From contig FMBT01000525.1 of NCBI GenBank assembly GCA_900095095.1, positions 1-62,600 of the forward strand: a stretch of 62,600 nt of DNA, given 5' to 3'. Shown piece after piece: positions 43,135 to 62,600 of the stretch. Under the pieces are notes generated by a model. That model was given only the letters and a program-made list of their open reading frames with translations, made no database searches and was not told the DNA's origin. Within the stretch, counting starts at the first letter, position 1. Every line of letters starts with the position of its first letter. The DNA is from Fragilariopsis cylindrus CCMP1102. Lineage: Eukaryota > Bacillariophyta > Bacillariophyceae > Bacillariales > Bacillariaceae. Both the position numbers and the translations under genes were made by a program.

Positions 43135-46100
43135 ATGGATATTCGTTCCTTTTTTGGCAAAAAGCCAGCCAAGAAGAAACCCGCTCTTGCTAATAGTGAT
43201 GCTGCTACTACAGATACTAATACAACAACAACAACAAAAACAACAACAACAAAGACGCCCAAAGAGGAAAAGAAGAAGGCCTCCGTTATTAAGGCCGATA
43301 TTAAAATTCCAAACAACAACAACAAAAATAAGAATAAACGCAAAGTAATTAACGATGACGATGATGAGGAAATCGTTGAAATTTCTCCTCAGGATTATTT
43401 TGCTAAGAGTGCCACCACCAATAAGCCGATTACTGAGGCTACTAATAGAAAGATTACTAGCACCAGTAATAAAGACGATGAAGATGATGATGATATAGAT
43501 GGTGTTGTTAGTGTTCTCCGTTGAAAAAGATCCGCTCATCACCGCGTCGTTCATCTACGACTGCAACTGCATCTGTATCTGCAAAATCGGAAACGGTAGT
43601 AGAAGAGAAAGATCATGGTGGTCGGCGTAAGAACAACAAAAGACGTATTTTGGACGATGACGATGATGACGATAATTTTTTTTCAGATGATGCAACAGAT
43701 GACGGTAACGACGATAGTTATGTGCTCGTTGACAATCCAGATGATGATAATTTTGAGGAAGATGACGATGACGACGACGACGACGACGATTATGAAAGCA
43801 CAAAAAATCCTACCAAACAATTGAAAAAACGGATCTCTCCTACTAAGAGTACACCCAGCAAGAAACAACCACCACCACCATCATCATCGCCAGCATCGTC
43901 CTCGTTGAAAACAAAAACACCCTCTCCGACTAAAGCTAAACGTGCACGCAAATCGCCTGCATTAGCATCAGCATCAAAGACAAAGGCTGTAAAGATTGTT
44001 ATATTAGAACCAACATCGGAACGTAATAGTTTTGATGTTGATAATGATATTGTTGTACCAGAATGTATGACAGGATTGACATTTGTTTTTACTGGGAATA
44101 TGGATGAATTAAATCGGGATGATGCAATTGACTTAATTAAAACATTAGGTGGTCGAGTTACTACTGCAGTTAGTGGTAAAACGAATTATTTAGTTGTCGG
44201 ACCTGTATTAGAAGATGGTAGAGATTATACAGAAGGATCTAAATACAGAAAAGCAACACCTGATGGCGAGGATAGTAAAGTTAAATTAATTATGGGAGAA
44301 AAATATTTGTATGGATTATGTCATTTGTATCATGATCAGGCCATGAAAGAAAAGGGGATTGATATTAATGATATTATTGAGAAGAAGAAAAAAGAAGCAA
44401 CAGCAGCAGCAGCAGTCAAGGCTGCTACTACTACTACTATCACTACAGGTTCGACTGTATCGAATCCATACGCCGAAAAAGGTCCTGTTTCGAATCCGTA
44501 TTCGAAAAGTAAAGGTCCTGTACTATCCAATCCGTATGCAAAAGCTAAAGGTTCTGTAGTATCCAATCCATATGCCAAAAATAAAGGTTCTGTATCCAAC
44601 CCATACGCGAAGAAAAATAGCACCGGTGATTCTTCTTCTTCTGCAGCTGCTCCTATGTTGGTCAGTCAGAATGATACTATTAATTCTTTATGGGTAGATC
44701 GATACAAACCAAGTCATACAAGGGAAATTTTAGGTAATAAAACTAATGTCAAGAAATTACAAGATTGGTTACGAACATGGGAAAAGGTATTCAATAATTC
44801 TAAAAATGCAAACAAGACATTTAGTAACCCAAGAGGGGGACCATGGAAGGCTGCATTATTATCTGGTCCACCAGGAATTGGAAGTAAGTGTTATTTAAAA
44901 CTTTTGTTGTCGTTGTTGTTGCTGTTGTAGATGACAGTCGTCGTCGTCGTCGTCGTCGTTGTAATACGAGAAGATTGAATTGAAAACTCACATTTCTCTT
45001 TCATCTTGCACTTTTTTAATAAAGAGACCACTACGGCCACTTTAGTTGCCAAGGAAGACGGAAGAGATGTTTTGGAATTGAATGCTTCTGATGCACGTTC
45101 GAAGAAGGCGCTCAGCTCCCTTGGGGACTTAACGGGGTCACAAGGTATTTCATTTATTAATATGAAAAAGAGTAACGAAACGAAGAAACCAGCATCCATT
45201 CAAAAACGATGTGTTATTATGGACGAAGTCGACGGAATGGGTGGGGGTGACCGATCAGGAATATCGGAATTGATTCAAATGATCAAAAAATCTAAAACTC
45301 CTATCATTTGTATCTGTAATGATCGTCAGTCGCAAAAAATCAAGAGCTTGTTACCCTACTGTATGGATTTGAGATATTCCCGTCCAACTAAAAACGTTCT
45401 AGCTAACCGTGCAATCCGTATTGCTGAAACAGAAGGTCTGGCTGTGGAGCGGAATGCCGCAGAAGCTATTGCTGAGTCGTGTGGTAACGATGTCCGACAG
45501 GTTATTAACCTATTACAAATGTGGGCCCAAAAGAAGGATGATAATGATGATGGCGAAGGCGAAGGGCAATCGACTGCATTAACGTACAAGAACTTAAAGA
45601 TAGAGGAAAATCAATGCAGAAAGATGAAATGCTACGTGTTAATTTGTTTGATGCTGCCAAGTTAATCATGGAAGGTCCAAGAGATTTGGCACAAGCTGAC
45701 GATAAAACTAAATTGAATAGTCTGTTCAAGCGCAGTGATGCCTTCTTTGTCGATTACAGCTTCACGGGTTTAATAGTCAACAAATTATCCTAAAATCGTC
45801 CAGAGTCAATATCTCCGCGTAAAACAAAAGGGGATCCGGTTGAAGAGCTACGTATATTAGAAGATTACACGATGCGGCCTTAAGTATGTCTGACTATAAT
45901 CTTTGCGAAAGTCAGATACGAGGTGGAGATTTGAACTGGAGTTTACTACCCACGGCAGCCATCCTTGCGGTGAAAACTGGATATCATGCTGGTGGTGAAT
46001 CTGGTGGATTTCTTGGGGGATTTCCAGAGTTTACTTCGTGGATGGGTAAGAATTCAAGTATGGGTAAGAATTATCGTTTGCTGAATGAGTTGTCACAACA

Positions 46101-46593
46101 TATGAATTATAAAGTTTCTGCGAATGCACAAGAATTAAGACGAACATACATCCCCGTTATGCGCGATCGTATATTCACACTCCTCAAGAACGGAGACGCC
46201 GATTCGAATAAGGAGGTGATCGCATTTATGGATGAATATGGTTTGAGCCGAGATGATATTGTAGAAAAGTTGGATTGTTTAGTTCTGGGTAAAAAGGAAC
46301 TATCCTTTGACGATTTAGATAGTAAACAAAAGGCGGCCTTTACTCGTCAATATAATTCTGGCGTACACAAAAGTCAAGCTTTGGTACGAGAACAGGGTGG
46401 TGGTGGTATTAAGAAGAAGAAAGGCAAGAAGGTCGTTGATGATGAAGACGAGGACGATGTATCAGACGATGATAGTTCGGTTGATGAGGTTGACGACGAT
46501 AAGGAGCTAGAAAAGTTAGCGGCACAATTCAAAAAGAAGGGTCGTAAAAAGGCAGCCGCAAAACCAAAAAAGAAAGGCAAGGGAAAGAAATAA
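43135..46593 (+). CDS. RFC1: Replication factor C large subunit RFC1
   Basis: The start MDIRSFFGKK looks like a PCNA-interacting (PIP-type) N-terminus. A Lys/Asp-rich region is followed by a BRCT domain at ~44055-44330 (LTFVFTGNMDELNRDDAIDL, GGRVTTAVSGKTNYLVVG). A cluster of five SNPYA/S repeats (~44458-44615) precedes the AAA+ module: WVDRYKPSHTREILGN, Walker A LLSGPPGIGK-TT split by an intron (44884..45024, GTAAGT...AAAG), LELNASDARSKK, IMDEVDGM and SCGNDVRQVINLLQ. The C-terminal RFC1 domain has QIRGGDLNWSLLPTAAIL and KNYRLLNELSQHM, and a Lys-rich end. Loads PCNA at primer termini with RFC2-5. One-base frameshifts fall near 43520, 45600, 45775, 45828 and 45875, yet similarity continues across each. 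Confidence 0.93.
44458..44620 (+). repeat. Degenerate in-frame repeats encoding SNPYA-KG units
   Basis: Five units of about 10-12 codons: SNPYAEKGPV, SNPYSKSKGPVL, SNPYAKAKGSVV, SNPYAKNKGSV, SNPYAKKN. They sit between BRCT and AAA+ domains of RFC1. Confidence 0.9.
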
Positions 46594-46761
46594 TAACGAG
46601 TAGCAATAGTTTACGGTATGTTTGTTTTTGCTAGTGGATGGTTTCGTAATAAAATACAATATGTTAATAATAAAATTATTAAAATAAATTGAATTTTATG
46701 TTATATAAATTAGAGTCGCTACTGTACAATAATTACCGTATCATCTATCCTATGATTGCTT

Positions 46762-47454
46762 TTACTCGATTCGTGTAGAAAGCCCGTTTCCTTTACTATC
46801 ATCAATGTATTCTTCATCCGAATCATCCTTTTTGTTGTTACCGTTGCTATCGTTAATCACTAGGTACGATGTAATCCAACGATCGAAGTCATCAATTTCG
46901 AATTGTAGATGATCACCTTCAAAGGTTTCAAAGATATTCTTCCCTGCTTCTTGTGCTGTTTTTAATCCAAATAAATCTTTTTGGTACCATTCCGTTTCAT
47001 TCATTGGTAAGATTTTATTTGGACTAAATGGATCATTTAAATCTGGACAACCCCAATGCTCACCCTCTTTCGGCCAGACCATAGAATCTTTGGTTGCCAT
47101 GATCCAGATAAACTTAGATGTCTTACTATAATTTTCATTGTACTTTTGATTATTATTATTCGGTCCCTCATTATTCCATTTTGCTAATTGACTATATTGA
47201 TGATACGAATCCTGTTCCTTTTGACGTGGATCACGCCAATAATTTGCTTGAAAGGAATGCTCTTGTGCAAATTCTGTATATGCCCTTCTCGAAGCTTGTT
47301 CTAATAGCAAATCACAAAATCCACCTACATTTGTTAATGATTCTGACGATGACGATGATATTAAGGACGGAAAACAACCAGGAACAGTTCCTTCACCAGC
47401 ATTCACTCCATTAACAGAGATAAATGTATGTACGGTCGGAGTGTTGTATCGTCT

Positions 47455-47489
<35 letters not shown>

Positions 47490-48253
47490 GGGACATTATT
47501 TGAAATAAGAAATAAGAAAGTGAGCACAGACAGACTGGGAAACCCATATAAAACTAATAATAAAAACGATAATATCAATTTCAATTTCAATATATAAGCT
47601 AACTTTATATAAACTTACGCAATATAACCACGAATAACATTATTGCCCTGAGAAAAACCAATGGCATGGAAACCATTCCGTAACTTCGGATCTTGTGATA
47701 TCTTTTGCGCAAAGATGTCCACGGAGGCATCCATATTTAAAAAGTATCCATTTTTTGTATCTTCAGTTTTTGTATCACCAGTTGGGATACATGTGACGTA
47801 AGCATCATTCAGTAAACTTGATGTATGGTGACCAATATTGATCATCCCATCATTGAAACAGGAATCGCCCATCCCATGTGCAAATACAACCGGGATGTTT
47901 TTAGTCGTGATCGTAGCTGTTGTTGTTGTTGTTGTTGTTTTTGCTAACAACAAATCATCATTATTCGAAGAATCTTTTTTCCATTCAAAGTCATGTCCCA
48001 CCAATAAATTATTCATCCTTGCAAATTCATTCATTTCGGAAGCAATTTCATCTGCATTGTTTTCAACACGATCTAACATATGACAAAGAATAGGATGAGT
48101 TTCATATAATTCTATAGAATCATGACACGGTCCTTTTACCGATGCGGCGGCGGTTTCTGTTTCCGCATTCGTTGTTCTAATAGAAACAACAGCAACGACC
48201 ACCAAACCAACCAAGATATAGTAGTAAAGAGTACAACGGTAACTGACAAACAT
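46762..48253 (-). CDS. PPT1: Palmitoyl-protein thioesterase (PPT1-like)
   Basis: CDS complement(join(46762..47452,47619..48253)), 441 aa, intact. The N-terminus has a signal peptide (YYYILVGLVVVAVVSIRTTNA). The alpha/beta-hydrolase core starts at VVFAHGMGDSC. The nucleophile Ser is in IGFSQGNNVIRGYI, which runs across the intron (GTAAGT...ATACAG; 166 bp, containing an (ATT)n run) into ARYNTPTVHTFISVNGVNAG. The catalytic Asp is likely in NYWRDP and the His in EGDHLQF. PPT1 removes palmitate from Cys residues of proteins in lysosomes/vacuoles. It is ~100 aa longer than animal PPT1, owing to an N-terminal helical segment, a poly-Thr tract and an Asn/Asp-rich tail. The YR retrotransposon ends ~205 bp upstream. 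Confidence 0.93.
47457..47490. repeat. (ATT)n microsatellite in PPT1 intron
   Basis: About eleven ATT/TTA units, starting a few bases from the intron's 3' end in transcript orientation. Confidence 0.9.
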
Positions 48254-48457
48254 GCTGATTTTTTATACTAGTGTTATGTTTTATCTTGTTCTGTGACAAC
48301 CCAAACAATCACAATTGACTTCTTTCAATCTCTTTTCTTATGTCTTTAAAATCTTTAATAATTGATCGGAAATAGAAGAAAGTTTACAGTTCGAAAGTGA
48401 GAATAAAATATGCAGAAATCGAGCTTCGCGGGATTAGATTCGGTGAAAGAGGGCGTG

Positions 48458-48918
48458 GGCACAGGATTTTGTTAGATGAATTACAAGGTGTTTCACACGC
48501 ACAAATATATTAACTTGAACTTTAATTGATTAGAATTATTTAATACCGGAAAGTGTACACTAGTGTTCACCTTTAGAAAGGGGGGGTCTGCCCGGCGACC
48601 GGAGTCGCCAAAAATCGCCATCTGTTAAAAACAGACAATAGTTTCCAGAAAGATGCCAGTCTTTCTGTCTAAAGCATTTCGTCAAAGATAGTGTTGTCAA
48701 AGTAGATATATTTGAAAAGCCCCCGGCTGTATAAATACAACCTTCCCCGCAGGGCCAGCTTTGACAAGGAGAGGTAGTCCTCGTCCTCGTCATTGAATCA
48801 CCAATCGGATGCCTAATCCGTTCAATCATTCAATTTCAATCTAGCTTCGGAACAGATCAGTTTCGTCAAGTTTAGTAAAACTAGAATCCTTTGAACGAAT
48901 CCAAAATCATCTCAATCC
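48458..48918. repeat. Split direct repeat B, outer copy (element 3' end)
   Basis: 461 bp matching 49189-49649 at a constant offset of 731 with no difference noticed. Starts GGCACAGGATTTTGTTAGAT and ends ATCATCTCAATCC. Contains a TATAAATA box on the + strand near 48729 and a shared 89-codon minus-strand open frame (48560-48829). Confidence 0.95.
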
Positions 48919-48936
48919 AGGGTGGGTGGGCGGGAA

Positions 48937-49187
48937 AATAAAAATCGTACAATAGATTCGGCGGATACAGTTCTGATCTGGAATTGTATCTTATAATCTT
49001 GCTGATTAACTGACTCTAGTCCAAGGGTAAGCTGTTGTATTAACCTTGATATTTCAAAGTTGTGAGGATAACAGCACCTTGATAAATTCCAATCGTCAAG
49101 ACGAGACGCATTGGTTCCAAATGTTTGTGTGGTTCACCTTGATATTTCGTCTGTCCTTGTCCCGTACCATCGTAGCTTTCGCATGTT
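48937..49187. repeat. Split direct repeat A, inner copy
   Basis: 251 bp matching 58841-59092. The two copies differ by one inserted T (GGTAAGCTGTTG versus GGTAAGCTTGTTG) and one substitution (TCTGTCC versus TCTGGCC). It is separated from the next B copy by a single base. Confidence 0.95.
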
Positions 49188-49188
49188 T

Positions 49189-49649
49189 GGCACAGGATTT
49201 TGTTAGATGAATTACAAGGTGTTTCACACGCACAAATATATTAACTTGAACTTTAATTGATTAGAATTATTTAATACCGGAAAGTGTACACTAGTGTTCA
49301 CCTTTAGAAAGGGGGGGTCTGCCCGGCGACCGGAGTCGCCAAAAATCGCCATCTGTTAAAAACAGACAATAGTTTCCAGAAAGATGCCAGTCTTTCTGTC
49401 TAAAGCATTTCGTCAAAGATAGTGTTGTCAAAGTAGATATATTTGAAAAGCCCCCGGCTGTATAAATACAACCTTCCCCGCAGGGCCAGCTTTGACAAGG
49501 AGAGGTAGTCCTCGTCCTCGTCATTGAATCACCAATCGGATGCCTAATCCGTTCAATCATTCAATTTCAATCTAGCTTCGGAACAGATCAGTTTCGTCAA
49601 GTTTAGTAAAACTAGAATCCTTTGAACGAATCCAAAATCATCTCAATCC
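49189..49649. repeat. Split direct repeat B, inner copy
   Basis: 461 bp, identical as far as I can read to 48458-48918, including the TATAAATA box (~49460) and the 89-codon minus-strand frame at 49291-49560. On the + strand this TATA box points toward the antisense ORF at 50317. Confidence 0.95.
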
Positions 49650-50316
49650 CCCTCCCGACATTTATACTTCATCAAATCGTGCACCATCCGGTAACTCATA
49701 CCTGATCAAGGAGTCAGCCTCTTTCAGTATTCCAAAGCCTGGTGCATGATCCACATTGGTAAGACTTTAGTGCGTTTTTAATGCACTCGGTGTCTTGCCA
49801 ACCCGATAACAAAACTCGTCTTTTGTTTCCCTTTTCCTTATTTTGTAATCGAAATTATTTCTTCGCTCGCCCTTCTCTCTGTTTTTCAACGTGTCGCATC
49901 TATTCCTTGTCGCGGCATGGCGCGCGCTCCACGATCGGCTCTCTCCTTTCCTTAACTTCCTTTTGGTCGCGCGTGTGACTGAAACAATATGAATTTCTTT
50001 TATTTCATTCCACGCTCTTCACAAAATCTTTTCAAAACGTGTCTTATCCGTTTTTTCCTGTTCGTTTCCTTTTCTGCCTGGACAGTGATCATTCCGTTTC
50101 ATGTTTAGAACCAATTTCGTAAACCACTCCGATACTGGGTGATAGGACAGCACTCGGGATTTTCCATGGCCTGTTTCCTACTTCCTTCATCGTAATTTTC
50201 CTCCTTTCCTTTTTCTCACAATCTCAAAACAAACTACATTCGAAAGCCAACTTTCGATCTGTTTGCTACTTCTCCTGTATTATCGTTTCCGATTCTTTTC
50301 GCTTTCTAACTTCAAA

Positions 50317-51096
50317 ATGGTTGACAACGGTTCCAAAGCAATTGCCTATGAACTCATCGATGCCGTTGACGTTCCTTCTTCTGTCGAGCAGGGCCTCGTC
50401 AACGCTGCGACAACTCGTTGTGCTTCCCAGAAGAGCGAGCTCTTGAAGGATTCCAGTGCTCTTGTTGCAATTGCAACAATTATCACTGCTGACAAGGCGA
50501 AGCTGCTGCATGATGAGACTAGTCGTGACCTCCTTCGGACGAAAATGGACGAACGTCGCGACTCCCGGAATGATTCCAAAACGGTGTTGGACAATGCCGA
50601 GTCAACTCTCGCGGACGGCCGTCGTCTGAACTCTCAAGTTATCAAGAGGTTCCTCAAACGGCACAAGATGAAGCACTGGTCACGAAAACGCCGCAAGTTG
50701 TTTGTCCCTGCTGTTAAATTGTTGACTGACATGATCTCAAGTCCGGGACCTTTGTCTCGACAGATTCGGTGCGATAACACAGGCCTGTCGCCTAGGTGTC
50801 ATACGGTTGGTCCATCCCTGGATCGTTTAGTAGCTGTCGGTGCAGTTATTATGAGCGGGGGCAACAATGAGCTTACCTGGGAGCTTTCTCCGGCGTTCAT
50901 TGCAGAGTTGGTCGTGAAGCCTGTACCTCCTCCAAAAGAACCTGTAGTGTATTCTTCTGGCTCCGATTCGTCTCAAAATTCCAGCGGCTCTGGTTCTTCT
51001 GACGACGATTCCTCTTCTGACTCCTCTAGCGAAGGTTCCTCTTCTGATTCCTCTCGCTCTTCTGACGACGAGGAATCCGATGATGAACAAGAATAA
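50317..51096 (+). CDS. Opposite-strand accessory ORF of the YR retrotransposon
   Basis: 259 codons from an ATG in a good context (TTCAAAATGG), preceded by a pyrimidine-rich leader. No family recognised. Residues ~1-110 are helical and charged. Residues ~115-130 form a dense basic patch (KRFLKRHKMKHWSRKRRK). Residues ~140-195 (GPLSRQIRC, HTVGPSLDRLVAVGAVIMSG, NNELTWEL) look like a winged-helix unit. The last ~50 residues are a Ser/Asp/Glu tail. Codon-phase composition is consistent with coding, whereas the opposite strand is broken. It is convergent with the YR ORF, stops ~160 bp apart. The basic patch, winged helix and acidic tail suggest a nucleic-acid or chromatin-binding accessory protein (inference). 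Confidence 0.78.
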   Translation: MVDNGSKAIAYELIDAVDVPSSVEQGLVNAATTRCASQKSELLKDSSALVAIATIITADKAKLLHDETSRDLLRTKMDERRDSRNDSKTVLDNAESTLADGRRLNSQVIKRFLKRHKMKHWSRKRRKLFVPAVKLLTDMISSPGPLSRQIRCDNTGLSPRCHTVGPSLDRLVAVGAVIMSGGNNELTWELSPAFIAELVVKPVPPPKEPVVYSSGSDSSQNSSGSGSSDDDSSSDSSSEGSSSDSSRSSDDEESDDEQE

Positions 51097-51254
51097 AAGG
51101 TTGACTGTCCGTAATCGCAAACAAAAGGATGTTATGAAGGAATTGCTATTGAACTCGAATGTGACACTGATACAGAATCACGATCATAGAAAAATAGTTT
51201 TTTAACATATAATAGTTATCACTTTTATTTGAAATATTGGAAACACGTATTGCT

Positions 51255-52811
51255 CTATGGCAAATTAGCCGAGAACCGCGTTAGAGCCAGTACTGACACT
51301 CTGGCATCGGTGTATCGTTCCATCATTGATCCACCAGGGGTTAGACCTTTGGCTCTACACAGCTTCCTCCAACGATTGTTTGCTTCTATGACATCTTGTG
51401 GAATTTGTGCATTTTGTGCCTCGGATGTCGCTCCTCGTCGTAACGATCTGTAGACACTGAATTCCTCATAAACTTTCACGGTATCCGCTAATACCCGTGG
51501 AAATTGTCTCTGAACATCCAGCAAAATTGCATGTAAATACTCATCCATTTCAGCAATGGACATGCGCTTTCCGTTGCGGCCTAGGAACATGGGTCCCTTG
51601 ACCATTCCTTCCTGCCCCTGGATGTTCAACAACCGATTGAACCATTTCTCAATGTTTCTTCCTCCTTTTGTCTTAGACACCAACGGTTGGCAAAACAATT
51701 TCTGTCCGATTTCATTTTTGAATGTACCAGCCAGCATCAATGGAATATGTGGATGCGCCTCATGAGTGACCGCCTCCGTCCAATGCTTTCGCATTGCACC
51801 TACGTCTACTCTGTTGATTTCCTCTCCTCGTAATGCCGCGTAATATCCTGCAATGAGGATACACGCTGTGGTACTTACACTCTTTCTACCGACCGGATCA
51901 TTCTCGAACGTTTTCCACTTCGTTTCTAACACTTCGAAGCTGCTGCTCAGTTCGTACTGACTCAGAGCTCTATCCGGCATCCATACGTCTCCCATCCGCC
52001 GATGAACTCCTATCATAAACCTTTTAAACCAGAGTTGATTTGTCTTGGAGTTGGACACCGATGCTCCAGTGCCATCATCCTTGACGAACGTCGATCCTAC
52101 TCCTCCTTGGCACGTATGTACAAAGTTGGAGTAAAACGACCGTTGCTTCCTCAACGTCTCGTATTGAATGGTTGCTGCGTTCCTTCCTGGGTCCTTGGAT
52201 CGCATCAACATGCCGCAGGCGATCGCCATGCCCCACACGTCTCGTGGTGGATGTGGTCCCCTTGGAGGCAAACACTCTCTTTCGAAACCTAGTTCCCTCT
52301 GATTCGAATGAAACTTCTTGCCCTCCAATCTGTTTGAATTCACTGTTGATCTTTCTCTTGCCCAAAAACTATCCAACGTCGCTCTCTTAATACACACCAA
52401 AGCCAAAGCATCGATCGAATTGGTCGCTGCTGGCAGCCTTTTAGTGATGTTGAAGAAATGACAGTCTGGACATTGAAAAGGAGTCATGAGATAGTCTCCC
52501 TCCCTTGCTTCCTTGAACCTCATGGGGTCATCGTCCTCGAGAGCGCTCTCGTCCATGAGTGAATCGTCGAGGTCCTGCACCTGTAGGACTGGGAACTTGT
52601 CCTGTTCGTCCTGCACGAAGCAGGATCCATGCCAAGCATTTCTGCATTCCTTGTTATCGTTCTTGCGACAACCAAAATTTCCGCATATGATTCCTGACAT
52701 CTCGGGGATTGTCCCATCGCATTTCACGCAAATTTCCTTTCCACGTCGAGACTCGATTAAGTCTTCCTGCTTTCCAAGGTCTGGACGATAATAAGGGGCG
52801 AACAAAAGCAA
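51255..52811 (-). CDS. Tyrosine recombinase with N-terminal PHD-like zinc finger
   Basis: 518 codons. Near the N-terminus, Cys/His residues at about 28, 31, 43, 48, 56, 61, 64, 114 and 117 (CVKC, CGNFGC, C-x4-H-x2-C, FQCPDC) give a PHD/RING-like cross-brace pattern. The C-terminal half is a phage-type tyrosine recombinase: YYAALRGEEINR (~residue 324, first Arg), SVYRSLRRGATSEA (~458, second Arg motif), NNRWRK (~479, Trp in the His/Trp position) and MMERYTDA (~499, nucleophile Tyr). The enzyme would integrate the circular DNA form of the element. The first codon of the open frame is TTG and its start overlaps the end of the RNase H frame by ~158 nt. It is either expressed from an internal start or is the C-terminal part of a longer pol polyprotein. 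Confidence 0.88.
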   Translation of the reverse strand: MLLFAPYYRPDLGKQEDLIESRRGKEICVKCDGTIPEMSGIICGNFGCRKNDNKECRNAWHGSCFVQDEQDKFPVLQVQDLDDSLMDESALEDDDPMRFKEAREGDYLMTPFQCPDCHFFNITKRLPAATNSIDALALVCIKRATLDSFWARERSTVNSNRLEGKKFHSNQRELGFERECLPPRGPHPPRDVWGMAIACGMLMRSKDPGRNAATIQYETLRKQRSFYSNFVHTCQGGVGSTFVKDDGTGASVSNSKTNQLWFKRFMIGVHRRMGDVWMPDRALSQYELSSSFEVLETKWKTFENDPVGRKSVSTTACILIAGYYAALRGEEINRVDVGAMRKHWTEAVTHEAHPHIPLMLAGTFKNEIGQKLFCQPLVSKTKGGRNIEKWFNRLLNIQGQEGMVKGPMFLGRNGKRMSIAEMDEYLHAILLDVQRQFPRVLADTVKVYEEFSVYRSLRRGATSEAQNAQIPQDVIEANNRWRKLCRAKGLTPGGSMMERYTDARVSVLALTRFSANLP

Positions 52812-55385
52812 TCGTTAGTGGTTCAAACATGTCCTTCTCCCAAGTCCCATTCTCCGTCGCTTTGATTGTGAAGCTTGTGTCGGCCAGTTTTCCCAGTTGC
52901 TTTCGCCAGTACCCTGTCATCAATGCCGGACAAACGAAGACATGTTTCGAATTCGGAAAAATGTGTTTCGCCTCGCACATTTGCTCCACCGCAACCTTGG
53001 CCAGCGCAGGTGGCGGAGCCCATATCCATGCTCCATTAGGATCCTGGAACACGCCATGGAACCAATCGGCCGTTGTGGCTACTTTCCAATCGTCCGTGAC
53101 CAGCCATCCCTGTATACGACTCTTCAGCTTAGGGTCTCTGTCGAAGGCGGTCTCATTCAGAGGTAAGTAAGGTAGAAAATCTTTTCCCGACATCACTCCA
53201 CTTGAAAGTTCTCCCCTTGACAATCCATCTGTCCCTTGTGCAATCATTCTTTTTCCCGCGATCCACACAAAGTGAATTATCAAATCACCTTCCATTTCCA
53301 TCTTTCGTAATCCCAATATCAATTGATGAAGTTTTGAATTATTGGACGATCCTCTAAAGTATGTGCGTTCTGCAACCATGTTGTCGGTGAACACCCAACT
53401 TCCGATCCTTTGGCAAGTTCTCCTGATGCAACCATTCGCTTCAACCGGATGACTAAATTTCCTGCCTCACGAAAGTTTGATGATTCTCCTTCCGTGACAG
53501 CCTTGCTCCAATTGCCAAAATCCGCATGCACTTCGTCGGTTCCTTCCAACCAACTGGAAGATCCGAATCCAGCTCCTGATGCGTCCCCTACTAAATACAT
53601 TGCATGCTTGTGCTTTGATCGAATAGGAACGTCAGGTGGATGTTTGTAACACGTTAATTCCAATAGCGCTTGCATGTCGTGCTTCAGCCGTGGCACCACG
53701 TCGACCCACTTTGGAGCCTTCTCTCTCTTGTACTTCTTGTTGTTCACTTGTGGCCTGCGTTTCATCTCTTTCCAACCCTCTTTATCTCGGTCAGACCTCC
53801 ATGAATTCAACGTGAGGTATATTCCCTTAAGGTAAGGGATCAATGTTGTGTAGGTCATAGACACGTACACTATGAACCCCACGTATTGTTCTGTGGTTTT
53901 GAAACGTATCTTGCCCTCTGGTGTCTCCTCTGCTCCTTGACTACCCGCTCCAACGTCTTCCTCCGTGAACTCGTCTCTCAGTCCGACTTGGTGAGCGATC
54001 CACCTTATCTTCTTCTGTAACTTGTTCCACCGTTCTTGGGTTACGCCTTTTGTCACCACATCTCCGTCTGAGGCTATAGTAGCTCCTGCCCACGCCCCTG
54101 GTCTCTGACTTTGAGGTCTACGTTTTCTTGCAGCGTCTTGCAACCCTAAATGACACAGTGTCTTCGCGGTTCGACTGCTGCATTGCCACGCCAATTCTTT
54201 TGTAGCTGCTATGATTCTCATATCGTCGACGTACTGTGCAATGTCTGAGGCTGATTTTCCATCTCTCCGCATTTTCATGATCCACGGTAGTGAAGGATCG
54301 TATTCCTGTGTACCAGGAAGATTTTCAATCACCCTATCCCATTGAAAAGGATTGTTCTCATCTGCTGGATCTCCTAGTGCGATGTGTTTCGCCCGCAACG
54401 CTCCTTGGACCGACGCATACGGTGAGCTTCGCAATCCCATGGCGTTTCGCAACCATCTTGCGACCATCACGCTGGCTTCTCCCCCTTTCATATTTGGATA
54501 TAGTTGAGTGAGGTCGATGCCGCAATACTTTTGCAATGAGGCGTGAAGTGGAAAATTGAGGAACATATCGCCATAATCATTATCTGCCAGCCATGAACCG
54601 GCTATCACCCACCTAGACATGGCGTCAATGGTGGGTAAACTAAACCAAGGTGCCCACAGCGCATTGTTTAATCCAGACTTGGAACCATCGTATACCATTC
54701 GGATGTCATCTCCTTTTGGTACATGAAACATATACATATACGCCTCGATTTGCTTGATGTCTACCAGATCCACATAACCCTTCATCATTACACTGTCTAC
54801 TTTCTTCTTCACCTGCTCTCTTATTTTATCATCGTCGTACGGTGGTTGACGATCGCTGTTGGATGGAGGATCCGTATCGAACATTGGAAGGAGACCTTCT
54901 CTGACGACATCTTGGTAGTCGGGAGGCCATCTCCAGAAGAAGATAGTAGATCCTCGTTTCCATTCCCACCACGAAGTTTCTGCTGCTTTCGCAACCGAGG
55001 CTTCGCCAGCTACTTTTATCGCTTCGTGATCCTTATGCTGCTTTCCTACCCGTTCAAACCAATCATGAAAACTCTTCTTGACGAGGTGCTTCCAATATTT
55101 TGACGCTGCTTTTCTCAACATTCGCAACATCCTGTTCAATTTCAACCTGTCCAACGGGACGTCAACATCCAACTTTGGTTGTGTTGTAGCGGGTCGTCGA
55201 CCTGGACTGCCATCTTTCTTTTGAGTTGGTGGGGGATTCTTGTAGTCAGCTGATTTCCAAAATTCCCCCAGCTTACTGGCTATCCTGTCGTTCCATAAAT
55301 GATACGGGATGGACGCGCCATCCGACCTCGTAGCCTTGTCTTGGTCATGCTCTTTACTAGGATCACTCCATTCTCCATTTTCCAT
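52654..55385 (-). CDS. Reverse transcriptase-RNase H of the YR retrotransposon (one frameshift)
   Basis: The main frame 55385-53319 begins MENGEWSDPSKEHD. The RT core follows VPKGDDIRMVYDGSKSGLN: motif A DNDYGDMFLNFPLH (~residue 269), motif B NAMGLRSSPYASVQGAL and motif C QYVDDMRII (~383). RNase H starts with YLVGDASGAGFGSS (~598) and EGESSNFREAGNL, then the frame is lost. The next part of the same domain, VFTDNMVAE and FRGSSNNSKLHQL with HFVWIAGKRM and GTDGLSRGE, continues in the frame 53394-52654. The shift lies within GGAAGTTGGGTGTTC at ~53390, with no classical slippery heptamer, so a one-base loss is likelier than programmed frameshifting. It copies the element RNA and removes the template strand. 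Confidence 0.9.
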
Positions 55386-56368
55386 GACGTATTCCTCACT
55401 TCGTCTTGTTCTGCATCCTCCTCGACTGTGCTTACTTCGACTTCCGACACCTCGGCTTCTATGGGTGCGTTGACTGGATCCGCTCGATTGCGCTTCGTCC
55501 TCCTGTCTTCACATTCACTTGCTGTCTTGTCCCTTGTCCTTTTGCCGGAGGCCGGCCTTCGCCATGTTGTAAGAAAATACATGCTGGCGACTATCACTTT
55601 TCCTGGTACTTCGTTTTCTATCAAGAGGTTTAAATCCTCCTCTATCATTCGATTTGTTCGTGTATCCGGGAAATCTAATACTCGCGCTTTTTCTTTCACT
55701 AACATTGATCTAATCACTCCTCTTCCTGGCCGAAATATTGAAGTAGCGTGAATCCTTCCACTTCGATTTCCCCATTCCAATAACCCACGCGATGAGTTAA
55801 TTTGGTTGTTCTCTGGTTTAACCACATCCCTTCCGGATTGCATGTTATCCAAAGCTTCACCCAGTTTTCCTGACACGCTTGGTTGAGCGATCGGAGTAAT
55901 TGCGTGCATGCAATTGTTAGATCGAATCTCCACCTGAAACTCTCCATCTGTTACTCCTCCAACTTCATGATGGTGTATCGAATATGTGCATTTCTCTACC
56001 CATCCATCTGGGAGCGTGACTTTGGCCTTCTTGCTTCGTCTCCTTTGTTTCACGTGTACTCGGACGGCGACTGTCAAGCTAGCCATGCTCCATATAGGAT
56101 CGTCAATGGCAGGCCAACTGCCTTGTACCAAAATCGCTTCTACATCGGTCATGCCTTTCCCTTCCATCGCATCGCCAATCCATGGAGGATCGTGCTTGGT
56201 ACATCCTCGCGGTTGCTTCGGACTTCGCATCCACTGCACGCTTCCTATCGCACCGACGTGCCACATCCATGTCGAATAGCGATTCGATATGATTCCTAAC
56301 TTTACTGTAGCTTTGATCAGCGATACTTCAGCTCGCTCTGCTATGTAGTTGTCTCCTTCCACATACAT
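55280..56368 (-). CDS. Uncharacterised ORF upstream of RT (possible pol N-terminus)
   Basis: 362 codons, ATG at 56368 with an upstream in-frame stop. I recognise no domain. The middle has PDGWVEKCTYSIHHHEVGG; later come RVLDFPDTRTNRMIEEDLNL and IENEVPGKVIVASMYFLTTW, then a basic/acidic linker. Its last ~35 codons overlap the RT frame. Reading the RT frame a few codons upstream of its ATG gives EEYVMENGEW, so one base near 55395 could fuse both into one pol ORF. Confidence 0.65.
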   Translation of the reverse strand: MYVEGDNYIAERAEVSLIKATVKLGIISNRYSTWMWHVGAIGSVQWMRSPKQPRGCTKHDPPWIGDAMEGKGMTDVEAILVQGSWPAIDDPIWSMASLTVAVRVHVKQRRRSKKAKVTLPDGWVEKCTYSIHHHEVGGVTDGEFQVEIRSNNCMHAITPIAQPSVSGKLGEALDNMQSGRDVVKPENNQINSSRGLLEWGNRSGRIHATSIFRPGRGVIRSMLVKEKARVLDFPDTRTNRMIEEDLNLLIENEVPGKVIVASMYFLTTWRRPASGKRTRDKTASECEDRRTKRNRADPVNAPIEAEVSEVEVSTVEEDAEQDEVRNTSWKMENGVILVKSMTKTRLRGRMARPSRIIYGTTG

Positions 56369-56444
56369 TTCTTCTGTTGTCGATCAATCGTCTTGGCTTC
56401 TCGGCCTGTCCGATCTAAGTCACGACCCTGAAGGATCACTCGTA

Positions 56445-58830
56445 CTACTCTCCTCGCTTGCCCTTTTCTGCCTCTCGGCGGCTAGCTCCTTTTCCTTCTT
56501 CTTCTTCGCTGGACTTGGTTCTCATCCCTTCTTTTGCGATGCTGTCAGTGCCTGATTGGCTTTCTTTGATACCGATCCAGTTCCTTTTCAAGAATTCAAT
56601 TGTCTTAGTGTATTCCGATTTCATCACTGCGGATGCCTGCAAGTGTTGATTTAAGACGTCCACTACTGCACTGTGTCCTGATATATCCTTGGCCAAAATC
56701 GCTGCTTGTGCTTTACCTCCTTTGAAGCATGACCAGACGATTTCATGAATCTCGGTCGCTGAGTTTCCCTCATATCGTTCTTCTGCTAGCTTTTCAAAGA
56801 TTGCGTTTACTGCTTGCGAAATATATTTCCAATTGTCCGTTTCCGTTGCACTTCCGTGCTCTTGTTTCATGGTGATGTTGGTCACTGTCATCCAATTCAT
56901 CAAGTCGTTTACGAAACCCTGTGCATCATTTATACATTCTTTTGCCACATTCTTTGCCTCTCCCGTAAGTAGCTCTCCAGCTTGGCCTCTCAGACTCCTC
57001 ACCTGTTTGTCCAATGCCTTCTTGATCTTCGACTTGAAAGACGTGGACGGTATTCCGAATCGAACTTTTGGGGCGTCATGGCCATCGGTATCAACCTTGA
57101 ATCAGTATCAGCTTTCGCTGTTCCGAATACCTTCGGGAGACTCGAGTCGAAAGATCCCATGAATGCCGCATCTACCTCTCCGTGGTAACCTGCTTTCTTC
57201 GCTATTGCTTTGTACTCCATGGTCCTTGTCAACGATCCTCCGGCAAGAGTGGCTATCCAATAAATCATACCCATCAATCCCAACGCATCTGGAAAAAGAG
57301 TGTGGATCGATGTCTTGCCTTTGACTAAATTCTCCTCTTGTCCTCGAACGTTCAATTTTAACCACGCCTGCAATTCCTCTTCGTGTTAAACCGCACGCCT
57401 CCTACGTCGATTACAGTGTCATCCAATTGTTCCTTAATGGTCGCTACCTCATGTTGGATCGTTCTCACGGCTGCCATGAACTTGCTCCATGGATTCCGTA
57501 CTCCCAGGTTGGTCTTCTGCTTGATTGTGTTCTAGCGAAAGTCCCTGAAGTCCCATTCCATATGATGGCGAAGCTGGTTCTGGTGCTCGTTCATTCAGTC
57601 GAAAATCAAACCTAGCATGTGATTGCTGTTGAGTACGTGGTGCAGCCGCCACTATCGAATTCAACTTGGCTTCCAACATGTCTAATTTTGAAGCCAGTTT
57701 GTCTCCGTACACTTGTGGCCTGGCAGTTAGTCCCTCCCTCGAAGTCCAGTGCTCGAAGAACGCTTCTGGCACCTTGAATCGGTCATTTATTCCTTGGCGT
57801 AGTTGCGACACCAATTGGCTCGTGAGTATAGACAAATCGGATCCATTGATGGCGACCAGGGTTCTGAACGTTTCCACTTCCGAATCGGTCATTTGCGTTT
57901 TTCGCTCCGCTAGGAGCTGCATCACTGACTTCTCTTCTTCTCCTTCACTCCTCGTTCCCACGATTTGTGTCAGATTGTGTACTGATTCCATGACCGACAG
58001 CGGCCCCATTCCTTCTTGACGGGTCCCTACCAAATTTCGCAAACTTACTAGACTCCTATCTGTCTGGTCAGACGGATAGCTCAACTGGTTCATTTCCGTC
58101 TTCTTAACCTTCTTTGTCAAGAATCCCATCTGGGCGTGCAAATCATCGATCGAGTTCGAAATATCTTCCTGAGACTCTGCACCTCCATCTTCGATACAAC
58201 GTGTGTTCACAAATTGACCGAAGGTGTTATACTCTTCTTCAAGGAGCCTGTGGTCGATAGTCCGTTTCTTTGGAGATGCCGATCCCCCGGATGATTCTCT
58301 CTCCTGTGCTATCGCATCAGCATCGTCTGCCGCAAGTCTGACGTCTTCTTTATCTTTCACACCCTGTTTGATGGATCTGAAGAACATGTCCCAGTTATCA
58401 ACCGTACGCCTTTCGTTGGCGTAGGTCTCTTGATCAGCCTTGAAACATTCCACTGGAACTATATGTGACAAGTAAGCTTGGTCCTGTTGAAGTCCCACTC
58501 CCATCAACACATATTGTCCAGACGCCGACTGGCGATGCGTAACGAACGGTGCCTTTAACTTCTTATGACATTGAACATCACACTTATCCTTTGCTTAATG
58601 CACATCTTGGACCCACCTTCTCCTCCGATCTGGCCTCCACAATACTTCGTCGGCAACTCTTTTTCACAAATGAACACAAGCGAACAAAGGCCAGTTACAC
58701 AAACCCCCCCCTCGGACGTACCTTTAGGAGTAGACACCGGCACATTTGCCAGTGCCCCTCCCGCTATGAACCCGCTCTGGCCTGACGAGGCCAAAGGCGA
58801 CTCAAAATTAATGTTAAAATTGCGGTCCAT
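56445..58830 (-). CDS. Gag-like ORF of the YR retrotransposon, interrupted by about four frameshifts
   Basis: Pieces in three frames follow each other without gaps: 58830-58555 (MDRNFNINFESPLASSG; several Cys), 58510-57449 (353 codons, coiled-coil-like, DDLHAQMGFLTKKVKKTE, ending in a Gln/Pro-rich part), 57373-56999 (LQAWLKLNVRGQEENLVKG, FPDALGLMGMIYW) and 57014-56445 (LDKQVRSLRGQAGEL to a Glu/Lys-rich end). Continuity across the breaks is visible, for example SASGQYVLMGVGLQQ, MAAVRTIQHEVATIKEQL then EELQAWLKLN, and APKVRFGIPSTS then ALDKQV. Gag identity is inferred from position, coiled coils and lack of enzymatic motifs. No CCHC knuckle seen. Confidence 0.7.
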
Positions 58831-58840
58831 GATACACTAG

Positions 58841-59092
58841 AATAAAAATCGTACAATAGATTCGGCGGATACAGTTCTGATCTGGAATTGTATCTTATAA
58901 TCTTGCTGATTAACTGACTCTAGTCCAAGGGTAAGCTTGTTGTATTAACCTTGATATTTCAAAGTTGTGAGGATAACAGCACCTTGATAAATTCCAATCG
59001 TCAAGACGAGACGCATTGGTTCCAAATGTTTGTGTGGTTCACCTTGATATTTCGTCTGGCCTTGTCCCGTACCATCGTAGCTTTCGCATGTT
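58841..59092. repeat. Split direct repeat A, outer copy (element 5' end)
   Basis: 252 bp matching 48937-49187 with one insertion and one substitution. Lies just upstream of the gag-like start at 58830, so it probably contains the element promoter. Confidence 0.95.
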
Positions 59093-59661
59093 GTAGGCGA
59101 GCACAAAGATCTTTTTATTTAACGGTTATTATTTATTTTTTGTTCTCTTTCTTACCAATAATTCACAGAGACTTAAAAGATATTTTATTTTTTGTACAAC
59201 GCAATGCAGCAATGCATCTGGGCCTGGTGATCTTGACGTCGTCAGTAATCATCTGGGCCTTGTGATCTTGACTTCTCATTGCGATTTGTGCATGTCGCAC
59301 ATGTGCTACAGAAACCAACAGTTAAGCAAGTCTTCGCCCCGCCCCCTTTCTGAAATATTTTTTTGGACATGACAAAGAACAAGAATCGAATTCGCGAATC
59401 AATCCCAAATGATGTCAATCGTGATTGATTCATTGATTGATGAAGGCAATCATCATTTGCTTGATTGATGCATGCCGTGATTTGAAATCTAGAAAGAATT
59501 CACAGAATAATTCACGTCTATTCGCATCACCTTTTATGACACAAATTCTTTTTTTCTAAGATAAAAGCATACTAGTACCCCATGCCATCACAATCAGAAC
59601 GCTTGAAAGGACAATAGATCAGACTTCTAGTTAGCTGTCATAGCTAGTGACGTCAAAAATA
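59093..59661. other. Intergenic, element flank to ACADSB
   Basis: About 570 bp. Contains a short local duplication of ATCTGGGCCT(G/T)GTGATCTTGAC at ~59216 and ~59250, and GATTGATT repeats near 59420-59470. No gene. Confidence 0.55.
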
Positions 59662-61387
59662 ATGTTCTCAAAACACCGATTTATATATTGTACATTATTT
59701 GAGTCGTCATAATCGTCGTTGTAGCACAGTGGTAACGGCGACGACGGCGACGACGACAGTAGGATCAACATCATTACAAGCTACTACTACAAGTCCTAAT
59801 AAAACTGTACTATTACACAAACCATCATCACGATATAATACTCTTCGTTACAATTATCGTGCATTTTCTTCATCGCCGTCATCTTTCTTCTTCGTTTTCT
59901 TCTGGAGAAATAACGCCATCTCCTCCACCTCCACCTCCATCTCCTCTTCCTATAACATCATTTACCGAAGATGAAATAATGATACAAGAAGCTGTTCGAT
60001 CATGGTCCAAACAAGTATTAAATCCAATCAAGGTACGTCAAATGGACAATGAATCAAAAATATGTCCAATAGTTTTAAAGGATTTATTTACACAAGGATT
60101 TATGGGTATTGAAATTGATCCAGAAAAGTATGATGGTGGATCCGGATTATCATTTACATCGTCCTGTATCATAATAGAAGAACTAGCAAGAATGGATCCC
60201 AGTATTGCTATTCTAGTCGATATACATAATACCTGTATCATCAATGCCATCCGATGTTGGGGTTCGAAACAATTAAAAAAACAATTTTTATCGAAATTAG
60301 CTACAACTTCGGTATCCTCCTTTTGTTTAAGTGAATCCGAGAGTGGTTCCGATGCCTTTAGTTTAAAGACAACTGCCATTCAATCGAAAAAATCGAAAGC
60401 TGAAAAATCGAAGTCGAATGATAATGAATCCTATCATTATATAATTAATGGTACTAAAATGTGGATATCCAATGCAAAAGATGCATCTACGTTATTAGTG
60501 TTTGCGAATGTTGCACCATCATTAGGATATAAAGGTATAACAGCATTCGTATTAGACGTCAATGATTATGAGCATATCCTTCTGAATAATGATAATAGTA
60601 ATGATAATGATAGTAGTAATAATAATAATAGTAAGAAGAAGAATGGTACTATAACAATTGGTATACCAGAAAAGAAATTAGGTTTAAAAGCAAGTTCGAC
60701 CTGTACCATACATTTTGAAAATGTAAAAATTCCATCATCACAAATATTAGGGGAAATTGGTTTCGGATATAAATATTGTATCGAAATATTAAATGAAGGA
60801 CGGATTGGTATTGCTGCACAACAACTTGGTATAGCAAAAGCATGTTTGTATGATATTGCCTTGCCCTATATGAAAGAAAGAAAACAATTTAATACATCAA
60901 TTAGTGAATTTCAGGTAAGAGAAGAAACATAAACGTAAATGTACATTATATTGAATATAGGACTAGTATATATTGTATCGTAGTAACGAATATCAATGCG
61001 TCGGTTATATGATTTATTTCTCATCCTCTACCTTTTTTTCTCGTTTTTTTTTTTTCCTATACTGTGTATCGTATTGTATAGGGTATGGAACATCAGTATG
61101 CACAAATTGCTACCGAGATTCATGCCGTGGAACTGATGACCTATAATGCCTGTCGACGAAAAGAACATGGTATGCCATTCATTAAGGAAGCAAGTATGGT
61201 CAAATTATATTCCGCACAAATAGCTGAAAAAACGGCATCGAAAACAATTGAATGGTTAGGTGGTATCGGATATACACAAGATGTATTAGCTGAAAAATTC
61301 TATAGAGATTGTAAAGTTGGTTCGATATATGAAGGTACAACGAATATAGAATTACAAACTATAGCAAAATTATTACGATCCGAATAA
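59662..61387 (+). CDS. ACADSB: Short/branched-chain acyl-CoA dehydrogenase, mitochondrial
   Basis: Core exons run to 60914 (GTAAGA donor) and from 61082 to 61387 (TATAG acceptor). Motifs in order: LKDLFTQGFMGIEIDPEKYDGGSG in parts, SSFCLSESESGSDAFSLKT (FAD/acyl binding, the family SEP/GSD region), YIINGTKMWISNA, FENVKIPSSQILGEIGFG, LNEGRIGIAAQQLGIA, EWLGGIGYTQDVLAEKFYRD and GSIYEGTTNIE with the catalytic Glu. The leader, MFSKHRFIYCTLFES then SRHNRRCSTVV and RYNYRAFSSS, is a mitochondrial-type presequence but is spread over different frames, with breaks near 59700 and 59885. Start chosen at 59662. It acts in isoleucine/short-chain acyl-CoA oxidation. Lys/Asn-rich loops at ~60395 and ~60590 lengthen it. 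Confidence 0.9.
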
Positions 61388-62600
61388 ATAATTATATATG
61401 TACTCATACTAAAAATCAAAAGGAAACAAAAAAGTCATAATATGAAAAAAGCATACTAGAAAACAAGCTAATACTACTACTGTTCTACCGTAACTGCGAT
61501 AATAAGATTACTTCATGATAATATCACGCAAGATCTTATCTTTTTCTGATTTATATAATGTTAGTGTGTTTGTTTTGGTATATCTATATATCATTCATGC
61601 CCTTCAATTCAACTTTACCTGTCTATGTTCAATTCTATTGTTTTTCTTTTTGTAAGCCTACTGGTATCTCACAATGTAGGCTCACACACAGCACACATCA
61701 TCTTTTTATGAGATATCATGTTCAGGACACAAAGCAGGGTAGAACTTCCAAGAAAATGCTTCTTACCATGTGTGTAACAAATAATGGTTCCAAAATATGC
61801 TGTAGGTGCTCTTTCAATTCATGCACACATTTGTGTACTATGACTAGCGTTAAAATGCACAATGTTACTAGTTAATTTCTTGCGGCTATTATGCTTGCCA
61901 GAAAAATTTTCTTGAAAATATAGTTATGTAACCCAATTTGTGTTTAGTCTTAATACATCTGCCAGACAACATTAGTGAACAGGGGTTTACTTTCTTCGCC
62001 AAGGGCCAAAAACCTATTTTTACCCTATATTAGCTAAAATCCACTAACATTATTTTGCGCAAGGTTTACCATGTAAACCAGCGCCCTATGAATGGGGATT
62101 TTAGATGGGTTAGTTTATTTTGTGAGTTTTGTGTGGATTTTTCTGTCAAAATTGTTGTGTGAGCATTTTCCAACCAACAGTGAGTATTTTAATTATGGTC
62201 CTCGATTGCTTTTATGAGATATTTTTGAAAATAGGGGTAAACTACAATTACATCCAAAAGAATAGTGGGTTGGGATGATTATGCTTTCCATTCACAAGTA
62301 ATATGTCCTAGTGAGGACAATACATCAATTCTGTGTTCTAATTTACCTGGTGGTGTGTGAAGATAAGGATATATCTTACTGTGTAGTGTGGGATGGCCTG
62401 TTTATTTCTTTTTTTAATATAATAAATGGCGGTAACAAATACAAGCTGTATTGGTTTATCTTAGCAAAAGTAGTATGGAGATGGTTAGTTGGTGTTTCAG
62501 TGGGTATGTTTTGAAGTTCATTTCTATTTCACTGTTGTGGAAGGAAAAACAACATCAAGATCTTGATCAGAAATGAAACCACAAAATATCTCAATAAGAG
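61388..62600. other. Intergenic, nothing recognised
   Basis: About 1.2 kb to the window end. The ORFs at 61558-61875 and 62311-62514 show no family resemblance. No RNA gene or repeat seen. Part of a gene beyond the window may start here. Confidence 0.5.

Follow-up and report, generated by a model that had tools for sequence, protein, structure and literature searches.

The window analysed here, a 62,600-nucleotide stretch of Fragilariopsis cylindrus CCMP1102 (contig FMBT01000525.1), carries at 48458-59092 a mobile element that is very probably a genuine retrotransposon of the order DIRS, with split direct repeats and a tyrosine recombinase (YR) in place of an integrase. In the same strongly favoured reading, the element is of a known kind, with an extra opposite-strand gene and a recombinase that departs from the usual pattern, and its family is low-copy and recently active in the Fragilariopsis genome. 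A first-pass annotation made from the letters alone had recognised the element type. New beyond it are an antisense open reading frame (ORF) found in two element families, a putative recombinase with arginine at the histidine position of the H-x-x-R motif, and a C-rich tract between the A2 and B2 repeats that is identical in both families.

Architecture of the element

The four repeats lie where the first-pass annotation had put them, two B repeats of ~461 bp and two A repeats of ~251 bp in the plus-strand order B-A-B...A. The B repeats (48458-48918 and 49189-49649) are identical at 461 of 461 positions, and the A repeats (48937-49187 and 58841-59092) agree at 99.2% over 252 columns, with one mismatch and one gap. 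The minus strand carries the long ORFs, with the reverse transcriptase (RT) and the putative YR; in this coding orientation the order is A1 (252 bp), ORFs, B1 (461 bp), A2 and B2, as had been proposed, and it recurs in copies on contigs C384 and C529. One base (49188) separates B1 from A2, and 18 bases lie between A2 and B2. Chance pairing of the B repeats is excluded by recurrence of the pair at 99.8-100% identity in C384, C565 and C462. No inverted repeats of at least 40 bp occur in 46000-62600, and inverted terminal repeats of the DIRS1-like type are thus lacking there. The predicted length of ~10.6 kb (10,635 bp) and the presence of extra ORFs also held, the latter being ORF1 and a plus-strand ORF at 50146-51096. 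In coding order, the features are:

58841-59092, minus: A1, left element end; begins AACATGCG; placed by comparison with A2 and by the left junctions of other copies
56445-58830, minus: ORF1, gag-like by position only; ATG at 58830; several frames here, 772 amino acids (aa) open in C384
53319-56383, minus: pol, comprising an N-terminal part, RT and the start of RNase H; read in two overlapping frames here and in a single 1021-aa frame in C384
52654-53466, minus: pol continued in another frame, with the rest of RNase H and a conserved C-terminal W-x-PPP module
51255-52814, minus: putative YR, 519 aa; zinc-finger-like N-terminus; R329, K366, R456-S-L-R459-R460, W482, Y501
50317-51096, plus: antisense ORF, 259 aa from its ATG; acidic serine-rich tail; tail-to-tail with YR
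49650-49690, minus: block before B1, partly alike in C529; ends GGGAGGG (GGAAGGG in C529); could be a polypurine primer site
49189-49649, minus: B1
49180-49195, minus: B1-A2 joint, TGTGCC-A-AACATGCG; matches what a circular copy would be expected to have at its joint
48937-49187, minus: A2, placed by comparison with A1
48919-48934, minus: A2-B2 border tract CCCGCCCACCCACCCT
48458-48918, minus: B2, right element end; ends TGTGCC

Copies, families and assembly

The window is contig C210 of the searched genome (67.9 Mb, 818 contigs), in which copy counts are lower bounds. The first-pass annotation had proposed a search for further copies and empty sites, which yielded both. The copy at C384:513246-523886 is 99.4% identical with the same layout, and its A1 and A2, like its B1 and B2, show zero differences. 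Both C384 flanks align to C499, an allele without the element (93.6% and 93.7%); together with the identical repeats, this allele points to recent movement. The RT in C478 is 99% identical to that of the window element. A further copy in C565 is 99.3-99.4% identical in DNA and has 29 private gap columns, which is why its protein match appears as ~80% with stops. More distant RT pieces are found in C529, C279 and C414 (65-66% identical) and in C580 (42-50%). The element at C529:8979-20107 (11,129 bp) represents a diverged family, ~65% alike in protein, with the same split-repeat layout built from A repeats of 279 bp and B repeats of 478 bp. Reduced forms occur as well: C99 carries a 731-bp solo A-B, for which C170 is the empty allele, and an old A-B remnant is present in C253 and C760, in stretches that are 97% alike with identical host ORFs on either side and are probably alleles. 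Two further contigs break off in an element, C573 with an A1 end and C462 with a B1-A2-B2 end.

The window copy itself is a poor representative. It had been called near-complete and a potential reference; the first label fits the layout only. Relative to C384, frame breaks interrupt both ORF1 and the first half of pol, and the A1 flank of the window copy is shared with a contig that has a different B2 flank. The A1 flanks of C210 and C565 are identical across the 2,608 bp compared (of 3,508 shared bases), and both contigs terminate exactly 3,508 bases past the element (window 58-62.6 kb; C565 116-121.4 kb). Their B2 flanks diverge from the first base after the element. From the equal end distance and the common A1 flank beside unlike B2 flanks, an assembly artefact through the repeat has probably produced one of the two joins, if not both. 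The A1 flank of C478 is 99.8% identical to that of C210 and C565. The window copy is therefore no proof that its two flanks belong together, and no empty site was found for it, its B2 flank having no second place in the genome. For the C565 B2 flank, C648 was considered as the empty site and rejected: the likeness is confined to pieces (83-96%), and the other side of C648 shows no relation to the A1 flanks. An artefactual origin of the repeats, which the first-pass annotation had named as grounds for refutation, does not hold for the layout itself: the layout does not depend on C210, because C384 has it as well and C499 carries both C384 flanks.

The diatom setting that had been suggested is confirmed by a deposited protein, P0005 (FRACYDRAFT_236751, Fragilariopsis cylindrus), which matches 64% of the query region at 100% identity. 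Its last 38 residues are the translation of window positions 49028-48915, running from A2 into the border tract, and from these two observations F. cylindrus carries this element family. The P0005 gene model joins the element RT to A2 and the border tract, and element sequence is thereby annotated publicly as a host protein.

Junctions and the border tract

Set against its empty allele, the solo A-B copy shows insertion between a CC and the A repeat without target-site duplication. The right ends stop at CC in five ends of the window family (C210, C384, C565, C462 and C99) and in C529. On the left, the flank before the A repeat is CC at C384, C573, C99 and C529 and AC at the locus common to C210, C565 and C478. 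CC thus adjoins the A repeat at four of five distinct sites, when CC makes up 3.8% of window dinucleotides. Comparison of the solo A-B in C99 with the empty allele C170 is exact: each target base is kept once. The C384/C499 pair is less decisive, its flanks differing by ~6% with small indels at the joint; it fits the lack of a duplication and is not by itself proof of it.

The internal B1-A2 joint reads TGTGCC-A-AACATGCG in the window and GTACC-G-AACATGCG in C529. These ends fit strand exchange at a two-base CC core common to a circle and its target. At 49180-49230 on the coding strand, the joint forms an imperfect inverted repeat, TGTGCC...GGTACG, with arms ~20 nucleotides apart (CGTACC...GGTACG in C529), and could be a candidate binding site of the recombinase.

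The tract CCCGCCCACCCACCCT between A2 and B2 is identical in both families, while the A and B repeats are 71-78% alike where BLAST aligns them. Followed by GGATTGAG, it occurs nine times genome-wide when up to three mismatches are allowed, and a reversed control has no occurrence. Six of the nine are exact and lie at known elements; C253, C760 and C46 hold one each, the last where the C46 contig begins, in sequence 99% identical to the end of C529. The complement of CCCGCCCACCCACCCT has four GGG runs with single-base spacers. DNA folding gave no excess stability at the A2-B2 tract (z 0.92) or the B1-A2 joint (z -0.89), with a program that is not known to model G-quadruplexes. At a guess, the tract acts during reverse transcription or where transcripts end.

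Reverse transcriptase and RNase H

Profile comparison and conserved motifs support the presence of an encoded RT-RNase H. RT motifs are seen on the minus strand as DNDYGDMFLNF (54552-54584), AMGLRSSPY (54405-54443) and YVDD (54210-54233), and RNase H motifs as TDN (53368-53394) and QGTDGLSR (53215-53238). Database searches at E up to 1e-3 returned 432 relatives of RT-RNase H and 198 of YR, 120 of each being listed, and the three listed relatives with a species name are all from diatoms (Fragilariopsis cylindrus once, Fragilaria crotonensis twice). The catalytic acids of RT-RNase H are kept in 92 or 93 of 93 relatives. A profile of these 93 matches a Gypsy pol of the same genome collinearly, with both RT and RNase H covered (E 5.7e-4, compared with 0.32 after shuffling; probability 30%), and separate profiles match it at 1.8e-4 for RT and 0.0038 for RNase H.

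In the window copy, this protein escapes domain annotation. Pfam gave nothing credible in the eight window ORFs, and neither RT nor YR was detected in the window copy. Of the matches listed genome-wide, 92 to RVT_1 and 10 to Phage_integrase, not one falls in this element family, and none of the 240 listed RT-RNase H and YR relatives has a Pfam domain. In a Pfam comparison of 40 relatives, RVT_1 matched nine weakly (best E 0.0015) and RNase H families matched none; no methyltransferase was found in these 40 or in the window ORFs. Neither the pol profile nor the YR profile matched a solved structure at E up to 1. ORF1 has no Pfam domain above cut-off, and its C384 version has no CCHC knuckle. 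The frame change inside RNase H is common to the window and C384 copies. It may be damage, an intron or a programmed shift; the frame is uninterrupted in the relatives P0001 and P0003, each one continuous protein, and in C529, with a 1240-aa open frame.

The Gypsy-like profile bears on a rival reading, in which the B-A-B...A order only mimics split repeats and stems from a long terminal repeat (LTR) retrotransposon whose repeats were rearranged or nested, or from a misassembly. Gypsy is indeed nearest among the few references compared, and the assembly trouble at C210 and C565 is real. The same layout nonetheless recurs in the C384 and C565 copies and in the diverged family of C529, both C384 flanks are present in the empty allele, Pfam finds no integrase domain in the window ORFs and C99/C170 shows no duplication, all of which make this explanation highly improbable. 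An ordinary LTR retrotransposon was rejected on the last two grounds, and a Crypton, with YR and no RT, by the presence of RT-RNase H.

An unusual putative tyrosine recombinase

The protein read from 51255-52814 is the putative recombinase. In a profile comparison it is collinear over 309 columns with the YR of a second family in the same genome, at a weak E of 0.18. The second-family profile was built from 117 of 120 listed relatives, three of at least 450 aa having been dropped. As controls, profiles with shuffled columns aligned over 18-37 columns in five trials (E 0.27-0.49), and the pol profile aligned over 42. The alignment pairs LRGEE with LRGGE, SLRRGAT with SLRAGGAT and NRW with GRW. 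Of the expected catalytic residues, R329 (51828-51830), K366, W482 and Y501 (51312-51314) are kept in 74 or 75 of 75 relatives. The N-terminus has conserved cysteines and histidines: C57 in 56 of the 56 sequences that reach it, H62 in 53/58, C65 in 58/58, C115 in 75/75 and C118 in 74/75. By its spacing we take this region to resemble a PHD finger; Pfam gives no PHD match in support.

Several observations speak against a recombinase. The histidine of H-x-x-R is replaced by Arg in 73/75 relatives, Ile in 1/75 and Gln in 1/75, and the second-position arginine (R459) is K or Q in 7/75, beside an invariant R460. The profile match, besides its E value, ends before the tyrosine. Y501 was placed by eye, 19 residues past the tryptophan as against eight in the second family. 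The Pfam domain Phage_integrase matches none of the 75 relatives, and single lambda Int, Cre and P2 Int sequences gave no signal against the YR profile.

These points could also mean that the protein is recombinase-like and no longer working, copies being moved instead by the canonical H-S-L-R recombinase of the second family. That the genome has such enzymes and that the histidine is so widely replaced would suit this account, which the near-invariance of R, K, W and Y across the relatives and the 198 database relatives of the protein render very unlikely.

The second family (L066-L075) comprises the ten listed Phage_integrase matches, on C60, C81, C635, C306, C523, C166, C532, C341, C774 and C648. 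Like the window element it has RNase H followed by YR, and its RNase H profile matches at E 0.0084; unlike the window element, its YR is detected by Pfam.

A conserved antisense open reading frame

Between YR and B1 the plus strand holds an ORF of 316 aa from stop to stop (50146-51096), or 259 aa from an ATG at 50317, and this antisense ORF is kept in two element families. It is open in the window, C384 and C478 and broken by an indel in C565. In C529 and C414 an ORF lies at the same place with 23-25% identity (E 8.3e-7 and 1.4e-6). The ORFs of the window, C384, C529 and C88 align collinearly from end to end, with a common H-x-VGP-x-x-x-x-L core and acidic ends. The protein is perhaps a DNA-binding regulator, a suggestion prompted by inspection of its sequence by eye.

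The alternative is that the frame is open by chance, the opposite strand being non-coding or regulatory there. The ORF has no Pfam domain above cut-off, and a codon-position test of near-identical copies revealed no purifying selection at this depth of comparison: C565, C384 and C478 show 12, 15 and 17 differences, of which 8, 9 and 13 are non-synonymous. Set against this, none of 500 dinucleotide shuffles of 49650-51250 reaches 316 aa, and the matching ORFs and their collinear alignment extend to the diverged family. Chance is therefore unlikely, if less so than the other alternatives weighed here, and a gene remains the favoured reading.

ORFs 23% alike to the antisense ORF also occur at C88:729420-730100 and C46:183194-183874, on contigs without a listed RT match, with E 6.3e-5 for the pair. 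They may represent a relative in the host, a domesticated copy or a remnant.

Relation to known elements

Group definitions of YR elements follow PMC4157794, PMC3266345 and PMC6681497, and comparisons with published elements extend to the accessible text of the reports cited. Split direct repeats of the form A1...B1-A2-B2 are common to PAT-like and Ngaro-like elements, to either of which this element may belong, and the position of B1-A2 (48937-49649) downstream of YR is Ngaro-like. Ngaro of Cafeteria burkhardae is described with the layout A1-[ORFs]-B1A2B2, a length of ~6 kb, a His-X-X-Arg motif and solo AB repeats (PMC8547959). The diatom element shares this layout, the internal repeats after YR, the order ORF1, RT-RNase H, YR and the solo A-B form. 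It differs in its length of ~10.6-11.1 kb, in the arginine that replaces the reported histidine, in the antisense ORF and in an RT and YR that, in the window copy, are invisible to Pfam.

PAT-like elements (Pat1, Toc3, Kangaroo) likewise combine split direct repeats with RT-RNase H and YR in one element (PMC4157794; PMC3266345). The conserved W-x-PPP module after RNase H sits where PAT has a methyltransferase, an enzyme that Pfam did not detect in the window ORFs or the 40 relatives, and C384 ORF1 differs in having no zinc knuckle. Kangaroo has an inverted YR, whereas here YR and RT are on the same strand and another ORF is the inverted one. DIRS1-like elements described until PMC3266345 are <6 kb.

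Among stramenopiles, DIRS/Ngaro elements are reported from Ectocarpus (PMC3145265; PMC12477816), as are Ngaro and PAT-like elements (PMC12477816). For diatoms, the accessible text mentions 14 'DIRS' elements (PMC5859163) and a Crypton (PMC3212892) in Phaeodactylum, Gypsy/DIRS1 at 1.11% in Chaetoceros tenuissimus (PMC8613185) and LTR elements (PMC2806351). No description of a diatom YR retrotransposon of this layout, or of an antisense ORF in one, was recognised in the open-access literature, from which subscription journals are mostly absent. The suggested undescribed stramenopile lineage is a possibility. For viral and prokaryotic relatives, pattern queries A2 and A1 against viral contigs and A1 against genome contigs gave 66, 15 and 73 stretches, none confirmed by tblastn.

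Host ORFs adjoin the element at 47615-48262 (minus) and 59763-60932 (plus). By eye, the latter resembles an acyl-CoA dehydrogenase.

Proposed cycle and significance

From sequence we infer YR activity, a circular intermediate, the steps of reverse transcription and a role for the antisense protein, as follows. The element would be transcribed from the minus strand to give ORF1 (gag-like), pol and YR. The RNA would be copied to DNA and closed as a circle, whose B2-A1 joint would repeat the internal B1-A2 joint. YR would recombine this TGTGCC-A-AACATGCG joint with a chromosomal site, usually at CC, to leave A1...B1-A2-B2 without target-site duplication. Later recombination of A1 with A2 would produce solo A-B copies.

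A bolder proposal, which we put forward only tentatively, is that of a separate lineage of YR retrotransposons in planktonic diatoms, ~11 kb long and unseen by Pfam-based annotation. Its recombinase would work with arginine in place of the H-x-x-R histidine and use a PHD-like zinc finger for chromatin targeting, and its opposite-strand regulatory gene would be read from the B-repeat side.

One genome here offers two diverged split-repeat families, an exact empty site, a solo A-B and a defined joint, a combination that is often difficult to obtain for YR retrotransposons. If they hold true, the antisense gene and the YR without the histidine extend the known cargo of such elements. Since relatives are so many, and none of those listed has a Pfam domain, routine annotation probably misses such elements in plankton data.

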